Shown here in pieces: positions 1 through 38,627 of a DNA stretch of 64,000 nucleotides. The notes under the pieces were generated by a model that saw nothing but the letters and a program-made list of their open reading frames with translations, was not told where the DNA came from and did not search any database. The translations under genes and the position numbers were made by a program. Source of the stretch: an uncultured Luminiphilus sp. (GTDB lineage Bacteria > Pseudomonadota > Gammaproteobacteria > Pseudomonadales > Halieaceae); the NCBI GenBank assembly GCA_943787485.1, contig CALSMP010000008.1:1-64000 (forward strand), in the 5' to 3' direction. Position 1 is the stretch's first letter. Every line of letters starts with the position of its first letter.

Positions 1-2
1 GA

Positions 3-341
3 TTTAGTCGCGCGCCAAGCGAGTTCACGCTAGCGCCCGTCGGCGCTATTCAGCAGTTGCTTGAGAAAACCGGATGGCAAATTGATGATGTCGATCTTTG
101 GGAAATCAACGAAGCGTTTGCCATGGTAACGATGCTCGCGATGCGGGAGTTTGATCTCCCCCATGACAGAGTTAATGTTCATGGAGGTGCGTGTGCGCAG
201 GGTCATCCCATAGGCTCTACTGGATCGCGCATCATGGTGACCCTCGCACATGCCATGGCTCGTTATGGTAAGCGTCGCGGCATCGCCGCCCTGTGCATCG
301 GGGGCGGTGAAGCTACTGCCGTCGCCATCGAGTCCCTGTAA
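3..341 (+). CDS. Acetyl-CoA C-acyltransferase (thiolase), C-terminal part
   Basis: This is the last ~112 residues of a thiolase whose start lies before the window; the same frame is open back to base 3. Thiolases condense two acetyl-CoA or cleave 3-ketoacyl-CoA in the cytoplasm. Visible family motifs are WEINEAFA, the HGGACAQGHPIG block holding the catalytic His, and the C-terminal ALCIGGGEA block holding the second active-site Cys. The N-terminal nucleophile Cys is outside the window. The sequence resembles the AtoB/PhaA biosynthetic type more than FadA, but the missing part prevents a firm choice. The stop lies 7 bases before ribB on the same strand, so the two are probably co-transcribed. 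Confidence 0.9.
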   Translation, partial: FSRAPSEFTLAPVGAIQQLLEKTGWQIDDVDLWEINEAFAMVTMLAMREFDLPHDRVNVHGGACAQGHPIGSTGSRIMVTLAHAMARYGKRRGIAALCIGGGEATAVAIESL

Positions 342-348
342 CCAGCTC

Positions 349-1455
349 ATGGCCTTAGCAACAATTCCCGACATTATTGATGACATCCGCGCCGGTAAAA
401 TGGTGGTGCTCATGGATGATGAGGATCGCGAGAACGAAGGCGACCTTATTATTGCTGCCGAGAAGGTCACGCCGGAAATTATCAATTTTATGGCCACTGA
501 AGCCTGCGGTTTGATCTGTATGCCGATCACGCCAGAGCGGGCGCGTTTGTTGCGCATTCCTCTGATGGTTCGTGACAACCGATCACAGCACGAGACAAAC
601 TTCACGGTCTCAATCGATGCCACCGAACAGCTCGCTCCGGGCGTCAGTGCTCGACAGCGATCGCACACCATCTTAAAGGCCATTGCCGAAGACGCGGGTC
701 CCACCGACATTCGTCAGCCCGGTCACATATTCCCGCTGGTAGCAAAACCCGGCGGCGTGCTGCGACGTGCGGGTCACACTGAAGCGGGCGTTGACCTCGC
801 GAGGATGGCGGGTTGTGCACCCGCTGCAGTGATCGTGGAGATTATGAACCCCGATGGCACCATGGCGCGCAGACCAGAATTGGAGCATTTTGCCGCTCAA
901 CACGATCTAAAGATGGGCACAATCGCCGACCTTATCGAATACCGATCACTTCACGAGCATTCAATCTCGCCCATGGAGGTGCATCCAATCACTACCGAAT
1001 GGGGTGAGTTCACCTTGCACACGTTTCGTGACGACATTGACGATGTCACCCACTTCGCGCTGCAGCGAGGCGCCATCGCGTCCGACACGCCTATCCCGGT
1101 GAGAGTCCAACCCATTAGTCTACTGCGGGACGTTATCGGGAATCGGCTGCCTGATACCGAGACAGGCTGGTCTTATCGTTCGGCGATGTCGTACTTGGCC
1201 ATGCAAGATAGCGGCGTGGTAGTGCTGATAGGCCAACATCACTCCGCAGAACAAACGTTAAATGAGATCAATCACTTTCTGGGTGCCAAGACGCAGCCGG
1301 CCCAGCCCCAGAATTATCGACTGATCGGTACCGGTGCGCAGATACTCCGCCACTTAGGGGTGAGTAAGATGAACCTCCTTTCTGCGCCCATTCGCTTCAA
1401 CGCACTGTCAGGATTTAGCCTCGAAGTGTGCGAATTTATCTCGCATCCTGACTAA
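349..1455 (+). CDS. ribB: 3,4-dihydroxy-2-butanone-4-phosphate synthase with degenerate GTP cyclohydrolase II-like domain
   Basis: A protein of 368 residues. The first ~200 residues are a DHBP synthase, which converts ribulose 5-phosphate to the four-carbon riboflavin precursor; the metal and substrate loop DDEDRENEGD (residues 23-32) and RAGHTEAGVDLARMAG are intact. The second half aligns by shape with GTP cyclohydrolase II (it keeps GTGAQILRHLGV) but lacks the zinc Cys motif CxxGxxxxxxxCxC and the catalytic QEGRGIG segment, which here reads GQHHSAEQ. Only the DHBP synthase step is therefore predicted, and a separate RibA should exist elsewhere. I chose the ATG at 349 because the family begins here; the longer track ORF starts inside the thiolase. 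It ends 2 bases from the convergent nitroreductase gene. Confidence 0.93.
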   Translation: MALATIPDIIDDIRAGKMVVLMDDEDRENEGDLIIAAEKVTPEIINFMATEACGLICMPITPERARLLRIPLMVRDNRSQHETNFTVSIDATEQLAPGVSARQRSHTILKAIAEDAGPTDIRQPGHIFPLVAKPGGVLRRAGHTEAGVDLARMAGCAPAAVIVEIMNPDGTMARRPELEHFAAQHDLKMGTIADLIEYRSLHEHSISPMEVHPITTEWGEFTLHTFRDDIDDVTHFALQRGAIASDTPIPVRVQPISLLRDVIGNRLPDTETGWSYRSAMSYLAMQDSGVVVLIGQHHSAEQTLNEINHFLGAKTQPAQPQNYRLIGTGAQILRHLGVSKMNLLSAPIRFNALSGFSLEVCEFISHPD

Positions 1456-1457
1456 TT

Positions 1458-2141
1458 CTAAGCAATGAACCGCACAAGATCCTCGAGATTAGCGCGGTCG
1501 GTGATCGCGTTATTGGCCGGATCTTCCTCATCCGGATAACCAAAAGACAGGCCAAAGAGCAGTTTTTGATCCTCCGGGATGTTCAGCGCCGGCTTGATGA
1601 CATGTGCCATAAAACCCAGCGCGGTTTGTGGACACGACCCGAGACCATGGGCCGTGATGCCCAGCATGACGGTCTGAGCAAACATTCCCAAGTCGCAGGC
1701 CTCGCGCAATCCGAATTCATCTGGAAGCGTAAAAAATGCAACGGCTGGTGCATTGAAAAAACTGAAATTTCGAAGGAACCAGCTTTGTCTTTTAGCCTTC
1801 TCCTCTCTTGGGATACCCAGCGCGTCATACAGCGCGGTCGCTGAGGCATATTGACGCTCTTTATAGACCCCTTCGTATTTCCCGTCATAGGGATAATCTA
1901 AAGACATGTCTCCCGCTGCGAATCTCCGAGGCAGTTCCGCGCGAAGAGCTTCCAACGCCTGCCCGGTGGCGATGTGTACAAACCAGGGCTGGGTGTTGCA
2001 GTTGCTCGGGGCACGCAGAGCATCCGAAAATATTTTTCGAATAATGTCTTCGGGCAATGCGTCTGAGCGAAAACCCCGGATTGAGCGCCGCTCACTGGCG
2101 ATCTGGGAAAAAATATCAGCACGATTTGTCAAACCAACCAC
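1458..2141 (-). CDS. Nitroreductase family FMN oxidoreductase
   Basis: A 227-residue flavoprotein of the nitroreductase fold, probably an NAD(P)H-dependent reductase of nitroaromatics, quinones or enones. FMN-binding features include RRSIRGFRSDALP near the N-terminus, the SNCNTQPW loop around residue 46, and the GLGSCPQTAL segment around residue 167, typical of the subgroup annotated as NfnB-like or 'nitroreductase'. Length and spacing fit the family. It stands alone on the minus strand, convergent with ribB. The start at 2141 gives an ordinary N-terminus with the helix that precedes the RRSIR motif. The real substrate cannot be read from sequence. Confidence 0.85.
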   Translation of the reverse strand: MVGLTNRADIFSQIASERRSIRGFRSDALPEDIIRKIFSDALRAPSNCNTQPWFVHIATGQALEALRAELPRRFAAGDMSLDYPYDGKYEGVYKERQYASATALYDALGIPREEKAKRQSWFLRNFSFFNAPAVAFFTLPDEFGLREACDLGMFAQTVMLGITAHGLGSCPQTALGFMAHVIKPALNIPEDQKLLFGLSFGYPDEEDPANNAITDRANLEDLVRFIA

Positions 2142-2279
2142 TCCTCAATGAATGCTCTCGGCGACAGCTCTTTTGCCGCACCCTTCCCGGGAAACTTGGG
2201 CACTGAATGCTCCCACGCACGTGTCCCAACCACGCGATATCGATCTGCTGCATTAGACGACGCGAACAGCTAGAACAGC

Positions 2280-2954
2280 TCACGAGAACTTTTTAGGAAG
2301 CAAGATAAAAAGTACAATCCCTGCGACAGCGGTAACAAGCGCAAGCACTGAAAACACCTTTAGCAACAAAGTACCAATCGTATCGCGATCATCGTAGTCC
2401 ATGATGTGTAACGACCACAGAAAATCCCACCAGCGCCAGGCGGTATTTCTAATCGCCACCACCTCGCCACTGCTTACATGTAAATAGGCGACCGTCGACG
2501 CATCTAAAGACGAGTAGACCTTCCAAAGAGGCAGCGGCCTGCCTCGGTATTCCGCAGCGAGAGGCCCAGAATCAACCCATTCGGCGGTATCGGGCGCCAA
2601 GTCGGTACGCAGTGATCCCACCGCGAGCGCTTGGTCTCGAGTAAGCGCAGGCAATGGGTCGCCTGACAGGGATAGCCACTTGATATCAGCATCGTGAGGA
2701 CGCACCTCCAGCACCCCACTCACCCGGCAAACCGAGGAATAATACGCAGACCGCTAATCTCCCCAGCTTCAAGTGTTAGGCTCGCTGGCTGAAAGTACTG
2801 GCCCTCGATCGGAATGACGCGCCCTTCCCCTCGCACGTAGTTGATATCAACAAACGCAAAAAAAAACACCGCTGGCAGTCCAAGCGAGCAACTGTAAAGC
2901 GGTGACAACTGCCAACCAGCGGTGCCAGCGCCTGAATAGTCGCTGCTTTTTCAT
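2280..2954 (-). pseudogene. PepSY-type single-pass membrane protein, interrupted by two frameshifts
   Basis: The gene starts at ATG 2954 (MKKQRLFRRWHRWLAVV...), giving a basic N-terminus and a membrane helix that ends in SGVFF. At a run of nine A (2858-2866; T on the coding strand) the frame is lost. With eight it would continue as FAFVDINYVRGEGRVIP. A second, opposite shift at about 2720-2724 restores the original frame, which then runs to the stop as a PepSY-like region containing EYRGRPLPLWKVY, WWDFLWSLHIMDYDDRD and a C-terminal membrane helix. The track shows this as two separate ORFs (62 and 147 aa). PepSY membrane proteins of about 200-220 residues like this are common in gammaproteobacteria and their function is poorly known; links to iron uptake loci are frequent. 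It could be a true pseudogene or two sequencing errors. Confidence 0.65.
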
Positions 2955-3101
2955 GTTTTATTTTGACAGCTCATTGTGGAATACTTCTTCAAGATGGTCG
3001 AAAGCATACTTGGTTTCATAAGGCTGCTCCAGCCATCGCAATCAGGGAAGATTGAACAACAGGAAGGAAACGCTGACGAGGCGTCACCTAGAGGGGGTAT
3101 A

Positions 3102-5550
3102 GTGGCAAAGTGGTTGAGCACGCTACGCGGGCCAAAACTCCTCGAGAACGCTCATCTTCCGCTTCATACTGTCGCGCTCAATAAGATATGTGACCGTGTA
3201 TTCGTTTACGTGGGCGCACTGTTTTTTATGGTTGCCGTCATGGTGCTGGCTGCCAGCCATAACGGCGAGGGGATATCACCCCCCCCCCCCCGTTGTACTA
3301 ACCTTGCCTCTATTTGCAGTCCTCTGCCTGGCGCTGAGGGTCGTCCGCTGGCCCTGGACGCAGCAATCACGCCGAGTCATCGCACAGCTCTTGTGGTCAA
3401 TTGGCCTTCTCATCGGTGTAGCATCGGGAAATCTTGGCTCGATGTATCTCATCAACGCTCTGCCAGCCACCCTGACCGCGGTTTTAATGTTTAATTTTCG
3501 AGTAGCGGCGCTTCAACTGCTTGTCATGATCAGCATCATCATCGGCGCGCTCTCACTTCGACATCTTGGCGTATTAGATCCCATCGAGCCGCGGGGCTTT
3601 TTACTTGCGACGCGATCGGGATGGGCTCTTGGCGTCTGCTATTTACTGGTTATTGGCATCATGATGATGGACCTGCTCGCACTTTTTGTGCGCGAGGTGG
3701 TAGCGCAAAAAACACGCCTCGACCTTCTGCTTTCAGCGGTAGAGGAAGCACCTGACGCCTTCGTGGTGTGGGATGAGAACGATCAGCTGGTCATGTGCAA
3801 CGAGAAACACCGCAACATCGACTCCGCCCTAGCGCCCTATTTAGTCCCTGGTGTCACTTTCGAAGAAACGCTGCGCGCAGGGATCAAACACGGTCTGTAC
3901 CCCGAATCCCATGGTAACGAGGAAGGGTGGATCGCACAGCGCTTGGCGAGCCACCGAGAAGACCAAAGCATGCGGATTGTTCGATTCGGCACCAACCGCT
4001 GGGTGCGCGTCCAGGAGTCACGGACCTCGCTGGGCTATTTAGCCGGCTTTCGAAGTGACGTTACAGAAATAAAAAATGTCGAAGAACTCCTGAAGGCTAC
4101 GCTTAATGAGGTCAATCAGGCGATTATTACCTTCACAGAAGATGGGGAAGTCGTATCACTAAACAGCGCCGCTCTTTCCATGTTTGAGCATGATGATCAA
4201 GCCGTTATAGAGAAGATTGAGGTGTTCGTATCCGCCGATGACTTTCACCGAATAGCCACAACTGACTTTGCGCATACCCAGCCAGCGGAATCGCGCCGTA
4301 ACGGCTTTTCCTATTCACTGTCGCTGCGGAAGAGGCAGTCGGGGTGGTTCGATGCCCGCATAAAAATCATCGAACTAGAGCCAACCAACCAGCGGGTTTT
4401 CATGGCGGTTATAACCGATGTATCTCAAGAAATAGCATACCAGAATCGCATCGCCGCCTTGGGCGCAGCGGTGGAGCAGCTAAACGCCGGCGTCGCATTG
4501 TTCAACGAGCATGACTCCCTGATCTACAGCAATGACAAGCTTGAGACGCTGATTAAGCTACACGATGGCGGCGACATAACAGGAATGCACTACGCGACCT
4601 TTGCGCGACATGTTGCGAGCCACTCATCCATTACCCACCTGAGCATGGATCGCTCGTCAGTTTTTCGGGGGCTTCTTAGCTTTTTTTATGCACCCCAAAA
4701 ACCTATAGAACTTCAAACCAATGACGATAAAACGCTGCGTTTAGAGGGGCAGAAGCTGGTTGGCGCTCACTCCATATTCATCTTCTCCGATATCACTGAG
4801 ATGCAGGAACAACGCGCCCAACTCGAGCAAGCGACCAAGCTTGCGACGTTGGGCGAAATGGCCACAGGAATTGCGCATGAGATTAACCAGCCGCTCAATG
4901 CAGTTAAACTCATGGCAGAAAATATTCGGAGAGGCATGGAGATCAACAGCGGAAAAACCCAAGAGCGTGTCGCCGACAAGATGCAACAGATCATCGCTCA
5001 GATTGATCGGGCCGCGACGATCACAACCCATATGCGAAGATCCGCTAGGAACGCCACCGAGGAGGATTTATTTTCTGAGATCCCCGACATAATCGCCGGG
5101 TGCCAAACCATGCTGGCGTCCCGCATGCGCCTCGAGGACATTGAGTGTCTGGTAGAGTGCGAAGCAACGTTGCCGGAGGCGGCAATTCATCCGCTGCGTC
5201 TCGAACAGGTATTGCTCAACCTAATGAGTAATGCCGTAGATGCTATTGCCTCAACGAAGGCTGATCAGAAATGGATCAAGGTCGAAGCGCATCAACAAGA
5301 GCGTGGCATTTTATCGCTGAGCATTGAAGACTCTGCAGGCGGTATGCCTGAAAATATCAAAAAGCGAATATTTGAACCCTTTTTTACGACCAAAGAAGTC
5401 GGCAAGGGAACCGGTCTGGGGCTCTCCATCTCTTACAATATCATCAAGGATTCGGGCGGAGAGCTCACCGTCGAAAACACTCAGCATGGGGCGTGCTTTA
5501 CTATCAAGCTGCCTAGCACCCAAAAAGCACTTCGTACCCAAGCTTCCTGA
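3102..5550 (+). CDS. PAS-domain membrane sensor histidine kinase, frame broken at a poly-C tract
   Basis: The product would be an inner-membrane kinase of about 815 residues if one C were removed from the 13-C run at 3279-3291. The first reading frame then joins the second (ISPPPP then VVLTLPLF). The N-terminal ~190 residues hold about five membrane helices. Three PAS-like segments follow (near residues 205, 330 and 455). Next comes a HisKA domain with the phospho-acceptor His in GIAHEINQPLN near residue 590, then an HATPase domain with N box NLMSNAVDAI, DSAGGMP, EPFFTTK and GKGTGLGLSIS. I prefer GTG 3102, preceded by GAGGGGG at good spacing; GTG 2976 is an alternative. No response regulator gene is adjacent, so it is an orphan. 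The frameshift could be error, decay or phase variation. Confidence 0.82.
3279..3291. repeat. Homopolymer tract of 13 C
   Basis: Thirteen consecutive C lie inside the sensor kinase gene, about 177 bases after its likely start and between the first and second membrane helices. Twelve (or fifteen) C would give one continuous reading frame; thirteen terminates it after a short nonsense tail. Tracts of this length slip readily during replication, and they are also hard to sequence correctly. Confidence 0.95.
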
Positions 5551-35662: not shown

Positions 35663-38627
35663 ATGGAAACAGCAACCGATACACAGGCGCAAAACAATCC
35701 TTTCATCCTAAAACGCAGTACGCCTATTGCCGCTCTAAATTTGACGGTGGAAGAATACGAACACCCGGATACGGGCGCCGTCCATTTGCATCTAGGCTGT
35801 GAAAATAGCGAAAACGTTTTCATGGTCGCCTTGCGTACCGTGCCGCAGGACTCAACCGGCGTCGCACACATCCTTGAGCACACCGTCCTCTGTGGCAGTG
35901 AGCGCTACCCTGTCCGCGATCCGTTCTTCATGATGTTGCGGCGCTCGCTCAACACCTTTATGAACGCCTTCACCAGCTCTGACTGGACTGCCTATCCCTT
36001 CGCCACCCAGAACACAAAAGATTTTTCGAACTTATTATCGGTCTATCTCGACGCCGTCTTTTTCTCTCGGCTCGACCCACTGGACTTTGCCCAAGAGGGG
36101 CATCGCGTGGAATTTGAGAAAGATGAGGTCAACGGAAAAGATACGCTCGTATTTAAAGGCGTTGTCTTTAATGAGATGAAGGGCGCGATGTCGTCCACAT
36201 CCTCGATTCTCTGGGACAAGCTGTGCTATGAGCTGTTTCCGACTAACACCTACCACTTCAACAGTGGCGGAGATCCGGAAGCGATTCCGGATTTATCCTA
36301 TCAGCAACTGCGCGACTTTTACGCGCGTCACTACCACCCAAGCAATGCGATCTTTCTTACCTTCGGCGATATTCCGGCCGCGTTACATCAGCGTGACTTT
36401 CAGGAACTCGTCTTAAAGCGGTTTTCACGTAGCAACGAAAGTGTCGAGGTTACCCTTGAGCAATTATTTTTGACCCCCCGAGTTGCCGAGCACGATTATG
36501 CCGTGGACGCATCGGAGGGTCTCGCGAAGAAAACCCACCACGTCATGGGTTGGAAACTCGGAGAGAGCGCTGACTTAACAGCTATGCTTGAAGCGCAGGT
36601 GCTCTCGGCTGTGCTGATGGAGAACAGCGCATCGCCGCTTATGCACTACCTCGAAACCACCGAGTTAGGCTCGGCACCCTCACCGCTCTGCGGGGTGGAG
36701 GAATCCATGCGGGAAATGGTTTTCTGCTGCGGGATCGAGGGCAGTAGCCCTGAAGTAGCTGCGCAATTCCAGCAGGAGGTCCTCGGCAAGCTCAAGGAAG
36801 TCGCAGACTCTGGGCATCGCAGAAGATCGACTTGAAGCAATATTGCATCAAATCGAGCTTAGTCAGCGAGAACTTACCGGGGACGGGATGCCCTACGGGC
36901 TTAATCTGATGTTGCGCGGGCTTGGTGCCGCTGTACACGGAGGAGAACCCGGTCGCTGCGCTGGACTTAGATCCGGTGTTGACAACTATTCGCGACCGAA
37001 TCAAGGATCCGAACTACATCCCCGGACTCGTCCGAACACTCCTGCTAGAAAACAATCATCGGGTCACCCTCACGGTCAAGCCCGATGGTGATCTGTCCGC
37101 CCAAGCGCAGCTGCGGGAAAGTGAGCGACTGGCGGCAATCGATGCGGGCATGACATCCGACGAGCGCAAGAATGTGATCGACCCTCGCGGAAAAACTCAG
37201 GCAGCGTCAAGCGCAGGTTGACGATCCCAACGTCCTTCCCCGAGTCACGCTGGCAGATATACCGGCGTTGTTGCCCGAGCCCACTTGTCATCACAACAAC
37301 GCAGATAACACCAAGAGTTGGCGCTACCCCACAGGGACAAATGGGATCGTATATCAACAATGGGTGAAGCCCTTGCCATCCCTCTCAGCGACCGAATCAG
37401 ACCAATTGCCGCTGCTAACTGGACTGCTCACCGAGGTCGGGATTCGTAATTCAAGCTACCATTGCGGTGCAAGATCGACAGTCGGCTACAGTGGGTTCAA
37501 TCAACGCTGCGACGTTGACCCGCAGTGACCGTCTTGATGAGCAACAGTGCTCCGCCTATTTTTTGCTTTCATCGAAAGCGCTGGCGAACCGCAGCAACGC
37601 GCAAGTTGGCTTGATGGAAGACACACTTTGTGGCGCGCGCTTTGACGAGGGAGCGCGAGTAAAAGAGTTAGTCAATCAGATCAGGGCCCGCCGGGATCAG
37701 TCAATTACGGGCAGTGGCCATAGCCTAGCCATGACAGCAGCGACTGCAGGTATGAGTCCGCTAGCCCTGCGCAGTCACCGACAAGGCGGGCTGGAGGGGA
37801 TCCGCAGACTTCGACTGTTGGACGATAGCCTGGGCAATGACAGCGCGCTGCAAAGGTTATTGGCAGAGCTGGCTATCCTCCATCAAAAAATCAGCGACGG
37901 GTCGGACTTTCAAGCCGCGGTTATCGCAGACCCAGACCATTTGATAGCGGCTGAGACGGAAGCCAGAAAAGCGCTAATCGCGATACCAAAACAACAGATC
38001 ACCGAGCCATTCAGTGCCGACCCAGTGCGGGAAATGCGGCGGGAGTGCTGGGTGGCCAACACCCAGGTCAATTTCTGCGCCAAAGCCTATGCGACGGTAC
38101 CGAGTGGGCACCCCGATGCTCCGGCGCTAACTGTGCTTGCAGCATTTCTACGCAACGGGTTTCTCCATCGCGCGATCCGCGAGCAGGGAGGTGCCTATGG
38201 TGGAGGCGCGAGCCAGGATGGCAACATCGGTGCCTTTCGTTTCTTTTCCTATCGCGACCCTCGACTCGAGGGCACGCTAGGAGACTTCGATCAGTCCATT
38301 CGGTGGCTGCTCGAAACCAAGCACGAGCCCGCGGCGCTAGAGGAAGCCATTCTCGGAGTGGTTGGCAGTATGGACAAACCCGGCTCACCGGCTGGGGAAG
38401 CCAAGAAGCATTTCCATGAAACGCTCTTCAACCGAACGGTGGAGGACCGAGCCACATTCCGCGCCGGCATTATCGGCACTACCCTTGATGATCTGCGGCG
38501 CGTCACAGAAACCTATTTAGCAGACAGCGATGCCGCCAGCATTGCGGTAATCACTAACGCCAAGCTCGCGTCAGATAATAAAAACCTATTGAATGACCTT
38601 GGCCTGGCTAGATGTGAATTGCTCTGA
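35663..38627 (+). pseudogene. M16C-family zinc metalloprotease (PreP-like), broken by four +1 frameshifts
   Basis: Reconstructed length is about 986 residues, right for presequence protease-like M16C enzymes that degrade free peptides. The inverted zinc motif is HILEH (about residue 70), with downstream Glu in VFNEMKGAMSS. After residue ~385 the frame jumps by +1 four times, at GGG 36812-36814, GG 36951-36952, CCC 37182-37184 and CC 37459-37460. Removing one base at each gives continuous family sequence (DSGIAEDRLEAI, EPVAALDLDP, VIDLAEKLRQ, SYIAVQDRQ). The rest of the reading frame shows no other damage. ATG 35663 has AAGGG upstream. Either the gene is very recently inactivated or these are assembly errors. 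Confidence 0.85.

Follow-up and report, generated by a model that had tools for sequence, protein, structure and literature searches.

The analysed window is a 64,000-nt stretch of an uncultured Luminiphilus genome, and its forward strand carries a sensor histidine kinase gene whose frame is broken at a run of cytosines (Table 1). Domains PF00512, PF02518 and PF12860 score above cut-off in the kinase, and the H-box (HEINQPLNAVKL) and hydrophobic helices are present. With these features of the class, the gene product is a membrane PAS histidine kinase of the HisKA class. The flanking genes encode RibBA, a nitroreductase, a PepSY_TM-type protein, a CoA-binding protein, an enoyl-CoA hydratase, a NUDIX protein, an SDR protein, a rhodanese, and GltX. 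We looked for a response regulator among these flanking genes and found none; hence, the label "orphan", which a previous sequence-only reading of the window had given to the kinase, is fair. BvgS, a sensor kinase with which this gene is compared below, is a hybrid kinase with receiver and HPt domains and periplasmic Venus-flytrap domains, and is paired with BvgA. The domain search of the Luminiphilus kinase returned only PAS, HisKA, and HATPase_c, with no response regulator flanking the gene. Judged from this architecture, the kinase is not a member of the BvgS family.

Positions 3279-3291 (+ strand) are occupied by exactly 13 C. No homopolymer elsewhere in the window is as long, and the second-longest C run is 8. 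The run begins past the first hydrophobic helix and ends ahead of the second. If it had 12 C, a single frame would extend from GTG 3102 to the stop at 5550, giving 815 codons plus the stop. As assembled, there are two frames, an upstream one (2976-3494) containing TM1 and a downstream one (3190-5550) containing the remaining TM helices, the PAS domains, HisKA, and HATPase. Both flanking frames are coding, as judged by homology. The sequence-only reading had described thirteen C between the first and second membrane helices, good coding sequence on either side, and an open frame of about 815 codons with twelve C, and all of these descriptions hold.

Table 1. Features of the kinase locus, in window coordinates
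Feature	Position	Strand	Basis or remark
PepSY_TM-type membrane protein gene with breaks at three +1 homopolymer insertions (2714, 2729, 2858)	2280..2965	-	Intact as one frame in 98%-identical relative
Orphan sensor histidine kinase gene: several TM helices - PAS_7 - PAS - HisKA - HATPase_c, without receiver	3102..5550	+	Frame broken at tract in window assembly
Upstream kinase part (N-terminus and TM1)	3102..3278	+	As assembled, out of frame until stop 3492-3494
Three extra bases in window relative to C12 relative, in frame, just upstream of tract	3271..3273	+	Alignment to JADHNP010000126
C13 homopolymer in kinase gene, TM1-TM2 loop (PPPP)	3279..3291	+	C12 in frame in independent relative
Downstream kinase part (remaining TM helices, PAS domains, kinase core)	3292..5550	+	ORF and domains

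Runs of this length are rare in the genome. Across its 2.67 Mb, only two C/G runs of at least 10 nt occur, namely the kinase tract and a G12 run in a thiolase gene. The run-length counts in 680 kb of the genome are 34 runs of 7, 7 of 8, 4 of 9, none of 10-11, and one each of 12 and 13, i.e. a smooth decay up to 9 followed by a jump to 12 and 13. The C12 pattern has two matches in the window, compared with a mean of 0.03 in dinucleotide shuffles. This rarity, together with the presence of the tract in an independent contig described below, rules out a chance run.

A genus-wide search for C runs of at least 11 revealed the same kinase gene in contig JADHNP010000126 (G070:C53, also L116) of the Luminiphilus MAG "BS301-5m". 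The contig aligns to positions 1-4682 of the window at 97.7% identity, and at the tract site it has C12, in frame. Starting before TM1 and crossing the tract, its frame meets no stop as far as the contig reaches, covering 570 codons in total and ca. 463 past the tract. A simple-sequence contingency locus is expected to have a long homopolymer or short tandem repeat in the gene or its promoter, of which one length is open and the neighbouring lengths are closed. A long homopolymer is found in both assemblies (13 C in the window, 12 C in the independent contig), the 12-C version being open over the entire L116 contig and the 13-C version being closed in the window. From the matching names, we infer that the MAG derives from the sample taken at Black Sea station 301 at a depth of 5 m, which was sequenced with Illumina HiSeq X Ten and assembled with IDBA-UD (PMC8067304). 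The contig itself has a length of 5.6 kb and is ca. 98% identical to the window. Outside this contig, and leaving aside matches of less than ca. 75 bp, the identity between G070 and the window is just 65-76%, and G070 contains another ribBA-like match (67%). Contig C53 is therefore probably mis-binned in G070 and comes from the window's own lineage, which makes it a near-conspecific, independent measurement of the tract. Being too distant outside C53, G070 was dropped as a whole-genome comparison.

Because an independent Illumina contig has C12 at the same site, the long C tract is real, and an in-frame version of it exists; this argument for 12 C draws on one comparison contig, a single record. 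An artefact made from a short, non-homopolymeric site, which a comparison with close relatives had been proposed to detect, is ruled out by the C12 contig. The same contig bears on the idea that the window's population has suffered a fixed loss of function, caused by one-off slippage and not by a reversible switch. The frame is indeed closed as assembled, but the rest of the 2.3-kb gene contains no other stop or frameshift in the kinase frame, and the kinase copy in JADHNP010000126, 93% identical in amino acids, is open. A fixed loss is thus very improbable.

The window and JADHNP010000126 differ in length by a single base at four places. Each of these is a homopolymer, and each time the extra base is in the window: CCCC instead of CCC at 2714, AAA instead of AA at 2729, A9 instead of A8 at 2858, and C13 instead of C12 at the tract. 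The first three, located ca. 420-570 bp from the tract, break the PepSY gene. As read from the alignment, these breaks are a local marker of assembly error.

The indel load of the whole assembly was surveyed by tblastn with proteins of other Luminiphilus genomes; this homology-based detection took the place of a coding-potential Viterbi scan, whose frameshift calls were swamped by noise. The survey gave 17 frameshift sites in the 239 kb covered of the window's genome. In G077, a single-contig relative, 188 kb yielded 4 sites, some of which may be query-side artefacts from broken ORFs of the window's genome; 93 kb of G070 yielded none. One site, C4:169622, was discounted as it looks like sequence upstream of a gene. 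Frameshift-aware alignment resolved most of the surveyed frameshifts as single-base insertions or deletions. Multiple single-base indels hit genes that, from sequence motifs and general knowledge, we take to be those for FtsH, NusA, a PilB/GspE-type ATPase of a type IV pilus or type II secretion system, and its PilC/GspF-type inner-membrane partner. These genes cannot plausibly all be pseudogenes, and repeated breaks in essential genes are the signature of residual assembly indels. Single-base errors in homopolymer length that fragment genes, including conserved ones, have been described for long-read assemblies (PMC8812927, PMC12007338); that long reads underlie the window's assembly is a guess from its error pattern and contiguity.

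Two further observations concern the same assembly. Between window positions 36800 and 37500, three frameshift signals fall in one long gene when compared with the frame of a 989-codon homologue on G070 contig C73. Two of them are +1 insertions, and the signals are probably further assembly indels. The second long run of the genome is C12 (G12 on the coding strand) in a paaJ/pcaF-type thiolase gene (G000:C5:236462-236473, L008:5463-5474), where it is out of frame; relatives encode FREGG at this site without a homopolymer. The genes adjoining the thiolase, a paaZ-like aldehyde dehydrogenase and an enoyl-CoA hydratase, are also fragmented.

The explanation that we favour, with a probability of roughly 0.7, is that an assembly prone to indels counted one C too many in a natural, in-frame C12 tract. 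The thirteenth C is untrustworthy because all neighbouring single-base length differences are +1, the PepSY gene is broken, and essential genes are frameshifted. The gene encodes an ordinary orphan PAS-type membrane histidine kinase with a TM1-TM2 loop partly encoded by an uninterrupted C run. The thirteenth C in the window would be a +1 homopolymer miscount, and the organism most likely has an intact copy of the gene. Several points speak against a miscount. A difference of 12 versus 13 is exactly what slippage gives, and runs this long could truly differ between populations. A run of 12 bases can also be miscounted in a short-read assembly. Moreover, at the resolved frameshifts in other parts of the assembly, homopolymers are mostly short or absent, and bases are lost at some sites and gained at others; taken alone, these sites would not predict a +1 at a long C run. 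The sequence-only reading had offered a phase-variation switch and a homopolymer sequencing error as the two choices. Its long tract withstood comparison with the independent C12 contig, but the frame break depends on one C lying among +1 errors, which favours the error option for the OFF state.

If the thirteenth C is genuine, the tract may be a true contingency locus, in which replication slippage switches the kinase ON (12 C) or OFF (13 or 11 C); the window would then represent an OFF cell or a population in which OFF cells are the majority. Two independent assemblies share the very long C tract, open with 12 C in one and closed with 13 C in the other, which is consistent with this, as is the in-frame 3-bp difference beside the tract. 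All four Pro codons of the tract are CCC, for which codon usage gives a probability of ca. 0.017. There is also a direct precedent, the bvgS gene of Bordetella pertussis, in which phase variation occurs via a C6/C7 frameshift (PMC1891110). On the other side, the +1 sits among other clear +1 errors, orthologues ca. 40% identical have no such tract, and a MutS gene is present in the genome, leaving no sign that slippage would be unusually frequent. Even with mismatch repair, some slippage persists in long runs. On balance, we consider a true contingency locus unlikely. A 13-C allele that is real may also be partly rescued by RNA polymerase or ribosome slippage or by re-initiation at a downstream ATG, yielding a lowered or N-truncated kinase instead of an OFF state. 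ATG codons do occur in the downstream frame soon after the tract, at 3442, 3487, and 3526, but such rescue needs the 13-C allele to be real in the first place, and we would hardly expect it.

Irrespective of the thirteenth C, the tract is a credible slippage site, formally like that of Bordetella bvgS: in both, a cytosine run lies within the coding sequence of a sensor kinase, and one extra C leads to a truncated kinase. Even the C12 run may slip in replication and produce OFF cells at some rate, as in bvgS. The Luminiphilus tract differs in being twice as long, in lying between TM1 and TM2 of a non-hybrid PAS kinase that has no response regulator next to it, in being known here from sequence alone, and in its host, which is a free-living marine bacterium. 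It seems to us doubtful that populations of this bacterium turn an orphan sensory kinase ON and OFF through the C12/C13 tract, as a planktonic counterpart of the bvgS switch. If they did, a free-living bacterium of the ocean, a setting in which contingency loci have received little study, would be hedging its bets with a sensory kinase in the manner of bvgS. As it stands, the case is mainly a warning that, before phase variation is called from frame-breaking homopolymers in such assemblies, neighbouring genes and independent reads must be consulted.

The tract was also compared across the genus. Four orthologues that are ca. 40% identical (G006, G008, G015, G033) have continuous frames, and their longest run at the site is 3-5 bases. 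Retention of the tract in the wider lineage, which would support a contingency locus and is not strictly required of one, is thus not seen among these orthologues, and a contingency tract conserved genus-wide is ruled out. Long intragenic G/C homopolymers that change the frame are known from the poly-G/C loci of Campylobacter (PMC6321876, PMC8355987) and Neisseria (PMC5084427); those genomes have many such tracts with measured variation, whereas the window's genome has its two C/G runs of at least 10, known from the assembly alone. C/G runs of at least 11 occur in 20 of the 57 genus genomes. Several of these are at contig ends, next to stretches of N, or within genes whose frame they leave open, and a genus-wide enrichment was rejected as they form no clear phasome. 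One of the genus genomes has a G13 run (coding strand) in a zinc-type alcohol dehydrogenase/quinone reductase-like gene, where it is out of frame (L091:1502-1514; G015:C19:220728-220740).
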